Shown here: in pieces, positions 6,519 through 16,955 of the stretch
Numbering within the stretch: position 1 is the first letter of the stretch
How the letters are laid out: each line of letters opens with the position of its first letter
Translations under genes and position numbers: made by a program
The notes under the pieces: model-generated
What the model was told of the DNA's origin: nothing
Databases searched by the model: none
The model's input: the letters and a program-made list of their open reading frames with translations, nothing else
Virus record (IMG/VR): IMGVR_UViG_3300007516_000095
Location: 1 to 29,045 of that record
Reading direction: 5' to 3' (one strand)
DNA length: 29,045 nucleotides
Origin: a virus

Positions 6519-6643
6519 AAACAGATAACGGACAATTCGACCCCAACAAACCCTTCACGACTCGTGACGGTGGAGAGGCTCATCTACTTGCCTCAGATAT
6601 GAGTGGCATCTGGCATCCCGCAACGATGGAGGCGAAGCCATGA
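6515..6643 (+). CDS. Short ORF ending in the cassette tail TMEAKP, 42 residues
   Basis: A 42-residue frame starts at the ATGA overlap with the previous gene. Its last residues, HPATMEAKP, repeat almost exactly at the ends of the two Cys-triplet proteins downstream. The reason is visible in the DNA: ATGGAGGCGAAGCCATGA encodes MEAKP-stop and at the same time supplies a GGAGG ribosome-binding site and the next ATG. It could be a true small protein, or the worn remnant of another cassette that lost its Cys block. No function can be assigned. Confidence 0.5.
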   Translation: MKTDNGQFDPNKPFTTRDGGEAHLLASDMSGIWHPATMEAKP

Positions 6644-7152
6644 GCGAAACAAAAATATACAACTCACGCGCTGAGTTCGCAAAGCGGTCGAACAAGTCCA
6701 CCAACGGAGTATCACGTGCGTTCGCAACAGCGAACACAAATTGGGTGTCAGACAACTCCTCAAACAGCGGGTGCTGGTGCTGCACAGGCTGCAAAGGCTG
6801 CACCGACTGCGACGACTGCACAGACTGCACCAACTGCATCGACTGCGACTACTGCAGATACTGCACCGACTTCATATCCTGCACCGACTGCGACGACTGC
6901 ACCGGCTGCACCGACTGCGACGAATGCACCTGCTGCGCCAACTGCAAATACTGCGCCGACTGCAGATACTGCAAAGGTTGCACAGACTGCACAGGCTGCG
7001 ACGACTGCACCTGCTGCGCCAACTGCAAATACTGCATCTACTGCTCAGACTGCTCAGACTGCAAAGGCTGCACAGAATGCAAAGGCTGCACAGACTGCAA
7101 AGGCTGCCACAACGGAGTCCGGCACGATGCAACAATGGAGGCGAAGCCATGA
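6640..7152 (+). CDS. Cys-x-x triplet repeat protein A, 170 residues
   Basis: A conserved 44-residue head (starting MSETKIYNSRAEF) is followed by 37 consecutive three-residue units, 36 beginning with Cys (CKG, CTD, CDD, CAN, CKY and similar; the exception is FIS), then the tail NGVRHDATMEAKP. The x positions are mainly Thr/Lys/Asp/Ser then Gly/Asp/Tyr/Asn. I know of no assigned function. Regular Cys every third residue could give a narrow solenoid or dense metal or disulfide binding; both are inference. No signal peptide is visible, so the cysteines would be in the reducing cytoplasm. Translation is probably coupled through the GGAGG site inside the upstream gene's tail. Long open frames in other phases here are artefacts of the 9-bp periodicity. 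Confidence 0.8.
   Translation: MSETKIYNSRAEFAKRSNKSTNGVSRAFATANTNWVSDNSSNSGCWCCTGCKGCTDCDDCTDCTNCIDCDYCRYCTDFISCTDCDDCTGCTDCDECTCCANCKYCADCRYCKGCTDCTGCDDCTCCANCKYCIYCSDCSDCKGCTECKGCTDCKGCHNGVRHDATMEAKP
6772..7107 (+). repeat. 9-bp periodic repeat tract, Cys-triplet block A
   Basis: The DNA is a run of imperfect 9-base units of the form TGC-NNN-NNC (for example TGCAAAGGC, TGCACAGAC, TGCACCGAC), 37 units plus a final TGC. Period 9 in frame produces Cys-x-x units and keeps several other frames free of stops. Confidence 0.9.
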
Positions 7153-7553
7153 GCGAAACAAAAATATACAACTCACGCGCTGAGTTCGCAAAGCGGTCGA
7201 ACAAGTCCACCAACGGAGTGTCACGTGCGTTCGCAACAGCGAACCCAAATTGGGTGAAGTCTAACTCCTCAAACAGCGGGTGCTGGGACTGCTCAGACTG
7301 CAAAGGCTGCAAATACTGCGTCGACTGCTCAGACTGCAAAGGCTGCACATACTGCACAGACTGCAAAGGCTGCAAAGGCTGCTGGGGCTGCACAGGCTGC
7401 AAAGGTTGCACAGACTGCACAGGCTGCAAAGGCTGCAAAGGCTGCACAGACTGCTGGAGCTGCAAAGGCTGCACAGACTGCACCGACTGCTCCTACTGCA
7501 CAGACTGCCGCAACGGAGTCCGGCACGATGCAACAATGGAGGCGAAGTCATGA
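7149..7553 (+). CDS. Cys-x-x triplet repeat protein B, 134 residues
   Basis: This paralogue of the preceding gene has the same 44-residue head (differences such as NTNWV versus NPNWV), a shorter block of 25 Cys-x-x triplets without interruption plus a final Cys (7281-7508), and the tail NGVRHDATMEAKS. Its composition leans more to CKG, CTD and CTG than the first copy, so the blocks have diverged more than their heads and tails. It starts at the ATGA overlap with copy A and its own TGA overlaps the next ATG. Function is unknown; an RNA-, metal- or redox-related role is conceivable from the cysteines alone. Confidence 0.8.
   Translation: MSETKIYNSRAEFAKRSNKSTNGVSRAFATANPNWVKSNSSNSGCWDCSDCKGCKYCVDCSDCKGCTYCTDCKGCKGCWGCTGCKGCTDCTGCKGCKGCTDCWSCKGCTDCTDCSYCTDCRNGVRHDATMEAKS
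7281..7508 (+). repeat. 9-bp periodic repeat tract, Cys-triplet block B
   Basis: Twenty-five units of the TGC-NNN-NNC type plus a final TGC, dominated by TGCAAAGGC and TGCACAGAC. It is homologous to the tract at 6772-7107 but 12 units shorter, as expected from slippage or unequal recombination. Confidence 0.9.
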
Positions 7554-12096: not shown

Positions 12097-14820
12097 ATGA
12101 AAGATGCGGTATTAGACTTAGAGTCTTACTACGACAAAGAATGCAGCGTGATCACATTAGGCACGCGCGGCTACATGAACCATCCCGACTTCGAAGCTTA
12201 CATGCTCTCAGTCGCGATTGACGACGGATTCGAGTGGGTAGGCAAACCAGAAGACTTCGATTGGTCGAAGCTCAACGGCTGCCACATTTGGGCAGCAAAC
12301 GCAAGCTTCGACGAGACCATCGTTTTGGAAATGGTCCGCCAAAAGAAATGGCCAGCAATCGTTGGTGCGCAGTGGGACTGCGTGCTTGATGCTGCTCGCT
12401 ACTGCGGTCTTGCTGGCAATCTTGCTGGCGCGCTCGAACAAGAGCTAGACATCAAGATGGACAAAAGCGTGCGCGACAAGATGAAGGGCAAGCGCTGGTC
12501 GACGATGACGCCAGAATTCCAGCAAGAAGTCACAGCCTACGCGCTTAAAGATAGTATCTACGCGCTCAAGCTCGTGCAAGCAATCAAAGATAAGTGGCCC
12601 GAAACAGAGCGCCGCATCTCACGCATGAACCGCTTAGCGTTGCAGCGCGGCCTGCCTATTGACGTAGCAAAGCTCAAGACGCAACACGAAGTCATTACGC
12701 GGCAGCTCTTCGAAGCTGAATCTGCGATACCGTGGGGCGGCGAAAGGCCATTGCTTAGTAGACCTGCTTTCGACGACGAGTGTCGCAAGTGTGGCATCGA
12801 GCCACCGGCATCACTAGCGAAAGACAATGTAGAAGCAATCGAATGGATTAAGAAGCACGGCCACACGCACAAGTGGGTTGGCTCCGTTTCGAACTGGCGG
12901 CGTATCAACGCGCTTAAGAAGAAGCTGGAATCGCTCGATGCGGCAACGCTTGCCGATGGTCGCTACTACGGTGGCATCAGATACTTCGGCGCTCACACTG
13001 GACGCTTTTCCGGCAGCGGTGGCAATCTGAACATGCAGAATTTGCCACGACAAGAAACGTTCGGAGTTGATTTACGCAAGTTGATTAGCGCAAAAAAAGG
13101 TCATAAGTTGATCGTAGCAGATTTGTCACAGATCGAAGTCCGCACACTGTGCTGGCTGGCAGAAGACAAAGTCACGCTCGCAGAGATTGCAAATACTGCA
13201 GACATATACGAAGCGTTCGCGATCCGGTTCGGCTTGTGGTCGAAAGACAAAGGCGCGCTAAAAGACGAAGACGAAGCATTGCGGCGTTTGGTAAAGGCGA
13301 TTGTATTGGGTGCGGGCTACGGCGCGGGCGCGCCACGCTTTGCTGAAATGGCTTCGCTGCCGTTAGTAGAAGCTCAGAAAGCAATTAAGCTATATCGTAC
13401 GCGCTTAAAGAAGGTGCCAGAGTTTTGGCGTAATCTAGACGAATCGGTATCAGCAGCTAGAAGTTTAGGAATTCCTTTCAAACTTGACTTACCCTCGGGC
13501 CGCGTAATGGATTACGGGCTCATCAAAACGGTCAAGCAAAATGGCAAATTCAGCAATGTTGCGCTCTTGAACCGAAACGGCAAGCGTTTGCCGATGAAGC
13601 TTTGGGGTGGCCAGCTCGCTGAAAACTGCCTGATTTTTAACACGCCAGTCCTAACCGAACACAGGGGGTGGGTGGAAATGGCTTCAGTCCGCGTTGAAGA
13701 TCGCGTCTTTGATGGTGACTCCTTTGTTAGCCATGGTGGTTACGTCGCAAAAGGAAAGCAGTCGGTTATAGACATGCACGGAATTACATGCACAGCAAAC
13801 CACGCGTTCCTTACGGAGTCAGGCAATTGGCTAGCCGCCGAAAAGGCTTGCAATCTTGAACTCAGTAAGGTAGCCTACCCACATGTCCAAAATAAAAGAC
13901 AAAACAGGAATTGTGTTCGGAAGCTGCGTCGTTGTTGGTTTTCACGAAATGCACCGCAGGCCATCGGGGCACACCATATCGCGGTGGATCGTGAAATGCC
14001 AATGTGGTATGCACTCGATAAAGGAGCTGCCCGACTTGAAGACCACGAAGTTTTGCAGCAAGCAATGCGCGTTGTTCAAAGAGTATGTAGCAAAGAGGAA
14101 ACGAACACACGGCCTAACAGCGCACCCACTATATGCAGTGTGGCGCTCTATGAACGACCGCTGCAGGCTGCCTTCTCATCAGGCTTGGAAAAACTACGGC
14201 GGTCGTGGAATAAGCGTGTGCGCCCGTTGGCAAGCGGCCTTCCAAAACTTCTGGGACGATATGCAGCCAACCTACGAAGCGGGATTGACTTTGGACCGGA
14301 CCGACAACGGTGGGGATTACTCACCAGAAAATTGCAAGTGGGCTACGTGGTCGGAGCAGGCCAACAATACTCGCAAGAGACGCTTTTCGCGAAAGCTGGT
14401 GGAACGAGCATCTTCCAACGGAATCAAATACAGCACTATGGCGGGACGGATAAACCGTGGATGGACCGAAGAGGAAGCGGTAACACTGAAGCCTTCGTTC
14501 TCGAGGAAGTCGGCGACCTAATGAACTGTGGACCTAATTCACGGTTCATGGTAAGAAACAAAACGGGGGATACTTTCGTAGCCCATAACTGCTCGCAAGC
14601 ACTTGCAAGAGACATCTTCTGCGACATGATGCTGCGGATCGAAGAAGCTGGCCTTACCATCCTCTTTCACGTTCACGACGAAGTCATTGTGGAATGCAGA
14701 GAAGAAGGCGCGGCTGAAGCACTTGCCACCATTGTCCGGATCATGTCTACTCCTCCTGAATGGATAAAAGACATTCCTGTTTCTTCTGAAGCTAAAATTC
14801 TAGCTCAATACACTAAATGA
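12097..14820 (+). CDS. Family A DNA polymerase precursor, interrupted by an intein
   Basis: This is the replicative polymerase, 907 residues as translated and 586 after intein removal. The N-terminal 3'-5' exonuclease is complete: D7-L-E9, N68 with F71-D72, and Y148-A-L-K-D152. Polymerase motif A is VADLSQIEVR (Asp342), motif B is RRLVKAIVLGAGYG (Lys400, Tyr408) and motif C is HVHDEVIVE in the C-extein. The intein sits at GGQLAEN/CSQALARD, between motifs B and C, in a conserved part of the active site, so unspliced protein should be inactive. N-extein is 12097-13626 and C-extein 14590-14817. I start at ATG 12097 (MKDAVLDLES) because the few codons upstream fall inside the terminator. The stop overlaps the primase-helicase start by 4 bp. 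Confidence 0.93.
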   Translation: MKDAVLDLESYYDKECSVITLGTRGYMNHPDFEAYMLSVAIDDGFEWVGKPEDFDWSKLNGCHIWAANASFDETIVLEMVRQKKWPAIVGAQWDCVLDAARYCGLAGNLAGALEQELDIKMDKSVRDKMKGKRWSTMTPEFQQEVTAYALKDSIYALKLVQAIKDKWPETERRISRMNRLALQRGLPIDVAKLKTQHEVITRQLFEAESAIPWGGERPLLSRPAFDDECRKCGIEPPASLAKDNVEAIEWIKKHGHTHKWVGSVSNWRRINALKKKLESLDAATLADGRYYGGIRYFGAHTGRFSGSGGNLNMQNLPRQETFGVDLRKLISAKKGHKLIVADLSQIEVRTLCWLAEDKVTLAEIANTADIYEAFAIRFGLWSKDKGALKDEDEALRRLVKAIVLGAGYGAGAPRFAEMASLPLVEAQKAIKLYRTRLKKVPEFWRNLDESVSAARSLGIPFKLDLPSGRVMDYGLIKTVKQNGKFSNVALLNRNGKRLPMKLWGGQLAENCLIFNTPVLTEHRGWVEMASVRVEDRVFDGDSFVSHGGYVAKGKQSVIDMHGITCTANHAFLTESGNWLAAEKACNLELSKVAYPHVQNKRQNRNCVRKLRRCWFSRNAPQAIGAHHIAVDREMPMWYALDKGAARLEDHEVLQQAMRVVQRVCSKEETNTRPNSAPTICSVALYERPLQAAFSSGLEKLRRSWNKRVRPLASGLPKLLGRYAANLRSGIDFGPDRQRWGLLTRKLQVGYVVGAGQQYSQETLFAKAGGTSIFQRNQIQHYGGTDKPWMDRRGSGNTEAFVLEEVGDLMNCGPNSRFMVRNKTGDTFVAHNCSQALARDIFCDMMLRIEEAGLTILFHVHDEVIVECREEGAAEALATIVRIMSTPPEWIKDIPVSSEAKILAQYTK
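13627..14589 (+). mobile_element. Intein in the DNA polymerase, 321 residues
   Basis: Splicing signals are clear at both ends. Block A begins with Cys1 in CLIFNTPVLTEHRGW. Block B is GITCTANHAFLT with Thr56 and His59 of TxxH. The C-terminal part has EVGDLMNCGPNSRFMV as block F and ends DTFVAHN with His320-Asn321, followed by extein Cys. The recognisable splicing segments are only about 85 residues at the N side and about 30-35 at the C side. The roughly 200 residues between them match no intein endonuclease in this frame; instead an HNH endonuclease gene occupies that stretch in the +1 frame. Known inteins usually carry the endonuclease fused in frame. Confidence 0.88.
13883..14521 (+). CDS. 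HNH homing endonuclease nested out of frame in the intein
   Basis: A 212-residue homing endonuclease in the +1 frame relative to the polymerase. Its head resembles phage HNH proteins with a Cys cluster (VKCQCG, KFCSKQC). The core is typical: HGLTAHPLYAVWRSMNDRC, WKNYGGRGISVC, LTLDRTDNGGDYSPENCKWAT and EQANNTRKRR. A C-terminal DNA-contact segment reads MAGRINRGWTEEEAVTL. In this frame a TAG lies at 13871-13873, the ATG is at 13883 with TAAGG 12 bases before it, and TAA is at 14519-14521. It is therefore a separate cistron, not a fused domain. Presumably it cuts intein-less polymerase alleles to spread the element. The frame-0 alternative has a stop within the first four codons of this stretch. 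Confidence 0.9.
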   Translation: MSKIKDKTGIVFGSCVVVGFHEMHRRPSGHTISRWIVKCQCGMHSIKELPDLKTTKFCSKQCALFKEYVAKRKRTHGLTAHPLYAVWRSMNDRCRLPSHQAWKNYGGRGISVCARWQAAFQNFWDDMQPTYEAGLTLDRTDNGGDYSPENCKWATWSEQANNTRKRRFSRKLVERASSNGIKYSTMAGRINRGWTEEEAVTLKPSFSRKSAT

Positions 14821-16955
14821 CCTACCGCTATATCAAGAACCTGCGTTCCACAGCAGCGATCAAATCAGCTGATCTCAGCACAATTAAAAGCACTACACCG
14901 ACATTCGCAAGCAAAGCAGAGTATCGTGACTGGTGCAGCAACGCTAAGACCAACAGCGTATTCTACAGCACACTCGAAGGCAGCGCGCCATCTAAGCGAA
15001 TCAGCAACGACAATCCAGTCAACAAGATCTATGGTCTCGTAGCAGACTACGACGCACCAGTAAACTGGCCCACTATCAATGCGGATCTGACTACTAAGTG
15101 CAGCAACTTGCCAACATGGTATTCCGAAACACAGTCCGGTTATTTGCGGCTCGTATGGGAGTTCGAAGAACCAGTGCCAATTGCTCCGGAAATGTTCGAA
15201 GGGTTCATGAAGCACCTTTCCAAAGCATTGGGTCTGGAGCGTTTGTTTGCTGGCTTTGACGACAGCTCGTTACGCGCAAGCCAGTATTTTGCATTAGGCA
15301 CAAAGTGGACCAAAGTCAACGGTGCCTTAGATGCTGCTGTTGTGCAGGCTACGCTTGTCAAAGCAGCGTGCGAAAGGCCGCCGCAGACAAACGACACGTC
15401 GATTCCGATTGCTGTAGTGGCGAAAGAAGTGGCGGACCGTTGGCCAACTCGTTGGGTCGGTGACTTCGAAGTTGGCTCACGCGGACCATTGTTTTGGATC
15501 GATGACGGCATTGATCGCGAAGGCTGCCAAGTAATCGAAGACGGCGTAGTGTGCTATAGCGAGCGAGCTGGAAAGGGCTTCATGAGCTGGCGAGACATAT
15601 TCGGCGGTTCATTTGTTAAAGCCTTCGAGCAGCAGAAGCTTTCAAGCTTAATGGATGAATACTGGTTCAATGGCCGTAGCTATTTCAAGCTGCTTTACGG
15701 TGCTGCTGTGACGCTGCCGAAAGAACAGCTGGTGCTAGAGCTTCGTCAAGCGGGCTTTGCAGTGCGTGCGAAGAAAGGTCAGCCACTTTCAGAAGTGGAA
15801 TCTGCGCTGCTTACTATTAGCAACCACAATCGAATCGATGAGATCGCACCAGTCGTCTTTAGTGCAGAGCGCATTGTCACATACAATGGCCAGCGTATTC
15901 TGAACTGTGCTAGCATAGATCCAGTAGCAGCAGACAGCGACGGTTCAGAAAGCAAGTGGCCGTTTTTGCATAAATGGCTGGAGCAGCTCTTCGTGGACAG
16001 TGGTAATACGAAGACACTGGATTACTTGTATGCGTGGCTCAAGCGCTTTTATTGCGCGGTAGTGGATCGGGAATTTGTACAGGGCCAAGCGTTGGTGCTC
16101 GTCGGCCCGACTAACAAAGGCAAGTCGTTGTTGTCGAACAAAGTGATCAGCGCGCTGGTCGGCGGTTATGCTGACGCTTCAGACTACTTGTCAGGTCAGA
16201 CTCAGTTCAACAAAGACTTAGGCCGCGTAGCAGCTTGGGTCATTGATGACACGACATCAGCTGCTTCTTTTCAAGACCAGAGAAAAGCGACTGAGCTGAT
16301 TAAGCGGAGCGTAGCAAATCCGCGTGTAGCTTATATGGCCAAGTATTCTGATGCACTTAGCATACCGTGGACCGGTAGAGTGATCCTATCATTGAACGAA
16401 GACAGCAGTAGCTTGTCAGTAATACCTTCTTTGGACTCATCGAATCGCGACAAGATAATCGCATTGCGCATACGTTACGGCGCAACGAGCGACTTTCCGC
16501 GCAACAGTGAACTCGAAGCAATCATCGAAAACGAGCTGCCACATTTTGCTAAGTTCTTGCTCGACTGGCAGCCGCCAAAAGAAGTCGAAGGAACCGGCAG
16601 ATTCGGCGTTGTGTCCTATATCGACGAGACCATTGCTGAAGCGGCTTACGACAACAGTAGTCGCAGCGGAACTGCAGAACTCGTGGAGTTCTTTTGTAAA
16701 AAGCACCGCGAGCTCGATTCGTCGCAGACCATGTGGGTGGGCACTCTTACTGAATTCCAAGTATTGCTGCACGACCTGAACGGTGGGCGAAGTGTTGGTG
16801 ATTCTAATAAGCTTGAGTTTGTGAGGCGCGGCATGGGTGCGCTTGAAGAAGCAGGCCGAAATAATCCCAAAGTTAGGCCAGTGGTCTCGAAAGGCAGCGG
16901 CGGCGGAAAAGTCTGGCGCATCGATCTGTCCGAAAAATACGACATCAAGTTCTAA
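14817..16955 (+). CDS. Primase/SF3 helicase
   Basis: A 712-residue replication protein. The N-terminal third looks like a primase-polymerase domain: GLVADYDAP gives the DxD metal site (Asp77, Asp79), followed by WYSETQSGYLRLVWEF and an SSLRASQYFALGTKW segment. The C-terminal half is a superfamily 3 helicase with Walker A GPTNKGKS (430-437), Walker B AWVIDD (about 473-478) and the sensor-like GRVILSLNED. A D5-like arrangement of primase then helicase is common in phages that encode their own polymerase. It overlaps the polymerase stop by 4 bp and is the last gene of the rightward operon. Confidence 0.87.
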   Translation: MTYRYIKNLRSTAAIKSADLSTIKSTTPTFASKAEYRDWCSNAKTNSVFYSTLEGSAPSKRISNDNPVNKIYGLVADYDAPVNWPTINADLTTKCSNLPTWYSETQSGYLRLVWEFEEPVPIAPEMFEGFMKHLSKALGLERLFAGFDDSSLRASQYFALGTKWTKVNGALDAAVVQATLVKAACERPPQTNDTSIPIAVVAKEVADRWPTRWVGDFEVGSRGPLFWIDDGIDREGCQVIEDGVVCYSERAGKGFMSWRDIFGGSFVKAFEQQKLSSLMDEYWFNGRSYFKLLYGAAVTLPKEQLVLELRQAGFAVRAKKGQPLSEVESALLTISNHNRIDEIAPVVFSAERIVTYNGQRILNCASIDPVAADSDGSESKWPFLHKWLEQLFVDSGNTKTLDYLYAWLKRFYCAVVDREFVQGQALVLVGPTNKGKSLLSNKVISALVGGYADASDYLSGQTQFNKDLGRVAAWVIDDTTSAASFQDQRKATELIKRSVANPRVAYMAKYSDALSIPWTGRVILSLNEDSSSLSVIPSLDSSNRDKIIALRIRYGATSDFPRNSELEAIIENELPHFAKFLLDWQPPKEVEGTGRFGVVSYIDETIAEAAYDNSSRSGTAELVEFFCKKHRELDSSQTMWVGTLTEFQVLLHDLNGGRSVGDSNKLEFVRRGMGALEEAGRNNPKVRPVVSKGSGGGKVWRIDLSEKYDIKF

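Follow-up and report, generated by a model that had tools for sequence, protein, structure and literature searches.

The viral DNA analyzed here, IMG/VR record IMGVR_UViG_3300007516_000095 (positions 1 to 29,045; "the window" denotes this whole stretch of 29,045 nucleotides), carries a family-A DNA polymerase gene interrupted by an intein, and within that intein lies a complete HNH endonuclease gene in a different reading frame. This nested layout is real, recurs, and is under selection. Very probably it represents a cis-splicing intein on which a distinct gene, that of its homing endonuclease, is overprinted. Ribosomes reading the polymerase frame would make a polymerase-intein-polymerase chain, the two Hint halves of which would fold together while about 210 wrong-frame residues from the HNH gene loop out, and the intein would then excise itself. 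Ribosomes initiating inside the intein, just past block B, would make a free HNH endonuclease. We infer both splicing and separate translation. By analogy with homing, the HNH protein would cleave the insertion site in polymerase alleles that lack the intein, and repair would then copy in the whole composite; in this way the enzyme probably spreads the intein. The original prediction of two proteins, a spliceable intein and an independently made HNH endonuclease, is supported by more than 120 homologues, by the pattern of third-position substitution in the HNH gene, by a stop-free intein frame, and by structure prediction.

An endonuclease gene overprinted on a polymerase intein

The features of the locus, with model confidence as the predicted local distance difference test (pLDDT), are as follows.

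12097–14820, + strand: family-A DNA polymerase gene, intein-interrupted, a single open frame (Pfam DNA_pol_A, 2.4e-32; phrog_17, 6.1e-66)
13627–14589, + strand: intein of 321 amino acids between AEN and C-SQALARDIF of the polymerase, with blocks A, B, F, G, and C+1 and an AlphaFold2 core
13627–13882, + strand: N-terminal half of the Hint domain, with Cys1 and block B TANH (profile matches to PDB inteins, NEQ068 at 7.6e-6; pLDDT 91–97 over residues 1–80)
13867–13870, + strand: AAGG, a weak Shine-Dalgarno-like site at a long spacing of 12 nucleotides from the HNH ATG (duplex −4.0 kcal/mol)
13871–13873, + strand: TAG closing the HNH frame upstream, 9 nucleotides ahead of the HNH ATG, as read from the sequence
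13883–14521, + strand: nested HNH endonuclease gene, 212 amino acids, +1 frame, ATG to TAA (phrog_374, 2.9e-49)
13883–14508, + strand: host-frame translation of the HNH gene, open, unconserved as protein, mostly at pLDDT below 50
14509–14589, + strand: C-terminal half of the Hint domain, with block F (VGDLMNCGPNSRFMV) and block G (VAHN) (alignment to relatives; pLDDT block means 88–96 over residues 291–321)

The polymerase frame runs without a break from its ATG at 12097 to the stop ending at 14820, so that both exteins share one frame, and similarity to family-A polymerases flanks the insert on either side in both Pfam and PHROGs. Intein blocks A and B and the terminal VAHN/C had been recognized in this frame, and they delimit an intein that begins with Cys1 at 13627 and ends with Asn321 at 14587–14589, Cys+1 following at 14590. 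The splicing residues are all present (C1, TANH at 13792–13803, the terminal HN, and C+1), and blocks F and G align with VYDxxNCGPRxRFVV...HN of relatives and of mini-inteins. The halves of a split intein are on separate polypeptides; the host frame of the window is uninterrupted. As modeled by AlphaFold2, the intein has the Hint fold: block means reach 88–97 pLDDT at residues 1–80 and 291–321 and confidence is mostly below 50 between them, and VIA-align matches the model to the NpuDnaE intein (4kl5) with a Z score of 14.7 and a root-mean-square deviation (rmsd) of 2.4 over 117 aligned residues. The host-frame translation of the HNH gene is a passive spacer within this intein.

Between the two splicing halves, shifted by +1 relative to the intein frame, sits a complete HNH gene with its own ATG, its own TAA, and a TAG upstream, just as first described; the third frame does stop within four codons, at the fourth. 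The profile match and conserved residues place its product among the phage HNH endonucleases of phrog_374, and an alignment of 24 homologues has 36 invariant columns. Pfam returned no domain in the HNH protein of the window, and the HNH proteins of relatives give just weak helix-turn-helix matches. AlphaFold2 models the protein with a mean pLDDT of 88; Foldseek returned no significant HNH match.

Selection on the two overlapping frames

The intein frame is indeed open across the whole HNH gene. When synonymous codons were permuted within that gene, holding its protein and codon usage constant, the intein frame acquired a mean of 7.56 stops, against none observed (P(0) = 1e-4), while the third frame has 12 stops where 12.1 are expected. 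This shuffling rules out an open frame by chance. The original figure of 4e-5 assumed uniform codons. Stronger evidence comes from comparison: across 75 diverged representatives, no host-frame stops were observed versus 454 expected. HNH homologues that are unlinked or decayed, outside an intact intein frame, have 6 to 35 stops, near expectation.

Substitutions give the same picture from the side of the protein. Among 19 close pairs of relatives, chosen with no locus in common, differences at positions 1, 2, and 3 of HNH codons number 453, 369, and 1191, and amino-acid change is 0.16 in HNH, 0.37 in its host-frame shadow, and 0.18 in the Hint N-half. This pattern indicates that HNH is selected as a protein, whereas the overlap in the host frame is kept open and is otherwise free. 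Selection thus preserves the protein encoded by HNH, the Hint halves of the host frame, and the freedom of that frame from stops; within the overlap, selection on the intein frame is essentially only against stops. Constraint in both frames had been proposed as a test. It is found in the HNH frame, through third-position substitution, and in the intein frame it acts against stops and not on a protein.

Elsewhere in the window, at 6640–7553, two tandem open reading frames (ORFs) starting MSETKIYNSRAEFAKRSNKS are followed by a long cysteine-rich CTDCxxC repeat, because of which several frames are open there.

Recurrence of the nested layout

Viral contigs were scanned with the HNH protein and then in wider scans, and loci were classified by Hint and HNH profiles; an initial Hint alignment was too diverse for scanning, and narrower Hint queries were used. 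With a threshold of 100 bits for HNH, we found 123 distinct elements that carry this HNH family between intein halves. The HNH gene is in +1 in 116 of them and in +2 in seven; none is in frame, and in-frame variants sought among all Hint matches did not appear. The host frame is stop-free in 122 of the 123, and 121 retain Cys1 and TxxH. Three of the loci, L001 and L002 (54% HNH identity) and L003 (47%), each have a single polymerase ORF of 911–913 amino acids with HNH nested in +1. Isolated phages also share the layout: in Hamiltonella phage APSE-1 the HNH gene is annotated, as P46 within P45, and in Caulobacter phage GB2A and Shewanella phage SFCi1 the polymerase alone is annotated there. Bacterial contigs with the element include those of Alicyclobacillus tolerans BL-1 and Paenibacillus alkaliterrae DSM 17040.

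The search for related phages with the same layout, suggested at the outset, thus had a clear outcome, and it bears directly on the concern that assembly or sequencing indels make an in-frame HNH domain appear out of frame. A single contig cannot exclude such errors, but compensating indels could not arise again and again in over 120 distinct elements so diverged, isolated phages included. With independent genomes refuting a sequencing artefact, we regard this explanation as vanishingly improbable.

The host genes of the elements are polymerases and SNF2-type DNA helicases. The commonest sites are closely spaced ahead of the polymerase QA-ARD helix (GGK|, GGKL|, xEN|, ENV|). Motif B holds further polymerase elements, among them the +2 elements, which cluster in the Hint tree; support for that fork is weak, and resolution of the short Hint tree is poor. 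A third set is in the SNF2-type helicases. Bordetella phage BPP-1 has an intact site that lacks the intein. Four polymerase genes (L038, L099, L116, and L120) hold two such inteins each, with opposite offsets. Pairwise distances correlate only moderately (Spearman 0.40 for Hint and HNH, 0.57 for HNH and extein, 0.15 for Hint and extein) and thus do not demonstrate that Hint and HNH were strictly inherited together.

Two further host genes were noted. A helicase ORF (L170:586-3888) appears to carry two inteins, the first of which matches Pfam Intein_splicing, and at L191:945-4979 a uracil-DNA-glycosylase domain is fused to a family-A polymerase with an intein-like Hint match.

Translation of the nested gene and fate of the intein

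Since the TAG at 13871–13873 closes the HNH frame, entry to that frame must come after it. Across the elements a start codon lies near the HNH start in 122 of 123. The best Shine-Dalgarno-like site reaches −4 kcal/mol or below in 86% of elements versus 22% of single control codons, a comparison biased toward the elements in that several candidates were allowed. A fairer control, synonymous resampling of the host frame, still favors such sites (mean −6.63 versus −5.43; 78 of 116 elements favored; Wilcoxon, 1.6e-7). In most relatives these sites are stronger than that of the window, and in many the sequence is GAGGT, inside the codons of block B sequence DHEV.

Instead of internal initiation, a programmed +1 ribosomal frameshift might fuse the N-terminal intein half (IntN) to HNH. 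Such a mechanism would suit the observations that all HNH frames are entered just past block B, that the +1 offset dominates, and that the HNH-frame stop lies a median of just 30 nucleotides ahead of HNH, which leaves room for a shift site. The start codons and favored Shine-Dalgarno-like sites described above speak for initiation, however; inspection by eye revealed no common slippery sequence, seven elements have the opposite offset, and the fusion product would lose splicing. We consider frameshifting unlikely.

The HNH region could also leave the mRNA as a self-splicing intron, an event that would have overturned the two-protein reading. Group I introns often house HNH genes. Yet a search of 13000–15200 with Rfam, at E values up to 1, found no match and no group I intron core, and selection against host-frame stops would be needless were the region removed as RNA. 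An intron is highly improbable.

Splicing itself might have been lost, with the insertion now a passenger tolerated in the mature protein; an out-of-frame HNH gene in a phage methylase, the ShiLan element, is published (PMC11855218). Against this, diverged elements conserve both the catalytic residues and the fold of Hint, and the insertion site is next to the polymerase active site, where an insert of 321 amino acids that stayed in place should do harm. We judge a nonsplicing passenger very unlikely.

Several observations do count against an overprinted homing endonuclease within a splicing intein. The AAGG of the window is weak and distant from the HNH ATG. The best solved match of the HNH model is an HNH enzyme, PacI, but a weak one (Z 5.7, rmsd 4.9, 89 aligned residues), and the sole PDB match of the HNH profile, I-HmuI, is also weak (E 0.017). 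Finally, the argument for homing draws on a patchy distribution and several sites per gene and not on matched intein-plus and intein-minus close phages.

Mini-inteins and split inteins

Some relatives have lost most of the nested gene. The mini-inteins L132:2210-2614 and L190:3501-3869 and the shortened L146:3501-3971 contain readable +1 HNH remnants (in L132, MHHRAIDIT... and a C-terminal ...VSRSTAYYRHKRG); the HNH core is missing, and the host frame stays open. Such remnants show that these inteins derive from nested elements by deletion. Another mini-intein, L023, is at the window's site and has no recognizable HNH remnant.

In other relatives it is the host frame that is broken. In L169:3501-4685, at the window's polymerase site, one stop interrupts the host frame past the Hint N-half and HNH spans another four; the intein C-half begins at an ATG of its own, which overlaps the HNH stop (ATGA). 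L011:1823-2900, L054:136-1200, and L138:1287-2360 occupy a third polymerase site (GRWSG| or GRFGG|), where the HNH gene separates the intein halves and the C-half is in a third frame. From their sequences, all four look like split inteins, or fractured genes, and L169 looks like one derived from the nested layout, the direction from nested to split being our interpretation.

These forms suggest a broader scheme, to which we give an even chance: that out-of-frame nesting is normal in a large phage intein family, that the HNH gene invaded a mini-intein at its loop, and that the later fates of such elements are mini-inteins or split inteins. A free-standing HNH gene would have entered the loop leaving the host frame open; in-frame deletion of HNH would return a mini-intein, and host-frame stops together with a start codon for the C-half would produce a split intein. 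The latter route, if true, would explain the origin of fractured genes.

Relation to known systems

If our preferred reading of a splicing intein with an overprinted endonuclease is correct, a whole intein family divides splicing and homing between two overlapping genes, all HNH genes detected being out of frame. Such elements show how one selfish gene can ride in another without breaking it. They also make testable the invasion of inteins by endonucleases, the origin of mini-inteins, and the origin of split inteins with free endonuclease genes, and several carriers are culturable, which makes such tests practical. Genome annotation misses nested endonucleases, as in GB2A and SFCi1.

The usual description of an intein is a single polypeptide that includes its endonuclease in frame. 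Large inteins of this kind, such as PI-SceI and TliVMA, resemble the window element in where a homing endonuclease breaks into the Hint domain, namely between blocks B and F. They differ in that the window endonuclease is in another frame (+1) and would be a separate polypeptide; not one of the 123 elements has it in frame. Fractured genes, reportedly described by Dassa et al. in 2009 as phage split inteins whose halves flank a free-standing endonuclease gene, are alike in having such a separate gene, whereas the window intein is unsplit; L169, L011, L054, and L138 come closer to them.

The claim of a new architecture holds in part. In the open-access literature we came across no description of an intein with an endonuclease nested in another frame, but APSE-1 P45/P46 and the ShiLan element are precedents, the first in databases and the second in print. 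The APSE-1 polymerase intein has the same layout and an HNH about 40% identical to that of the window. It is annotated as overlapping genes, and no open-access paper describing it as an intein with an out-of-frame endonuclease was found: a 2005 paper that includes bacteriophage DNA polymerase I inteins in its list refers to APSE-1 for inteins of phages (PMC549080), and the intein is unmentioned in a 2021 paper on APSE genomics (PMC8579659). In the ShiLan element, too, the HNH gene lies out of frame within a host gene that is still open in its own frame (PMC11855218). That element lacks intein splicing domains, whereas the HNH gene of the window is flanked by Hint on both sides.
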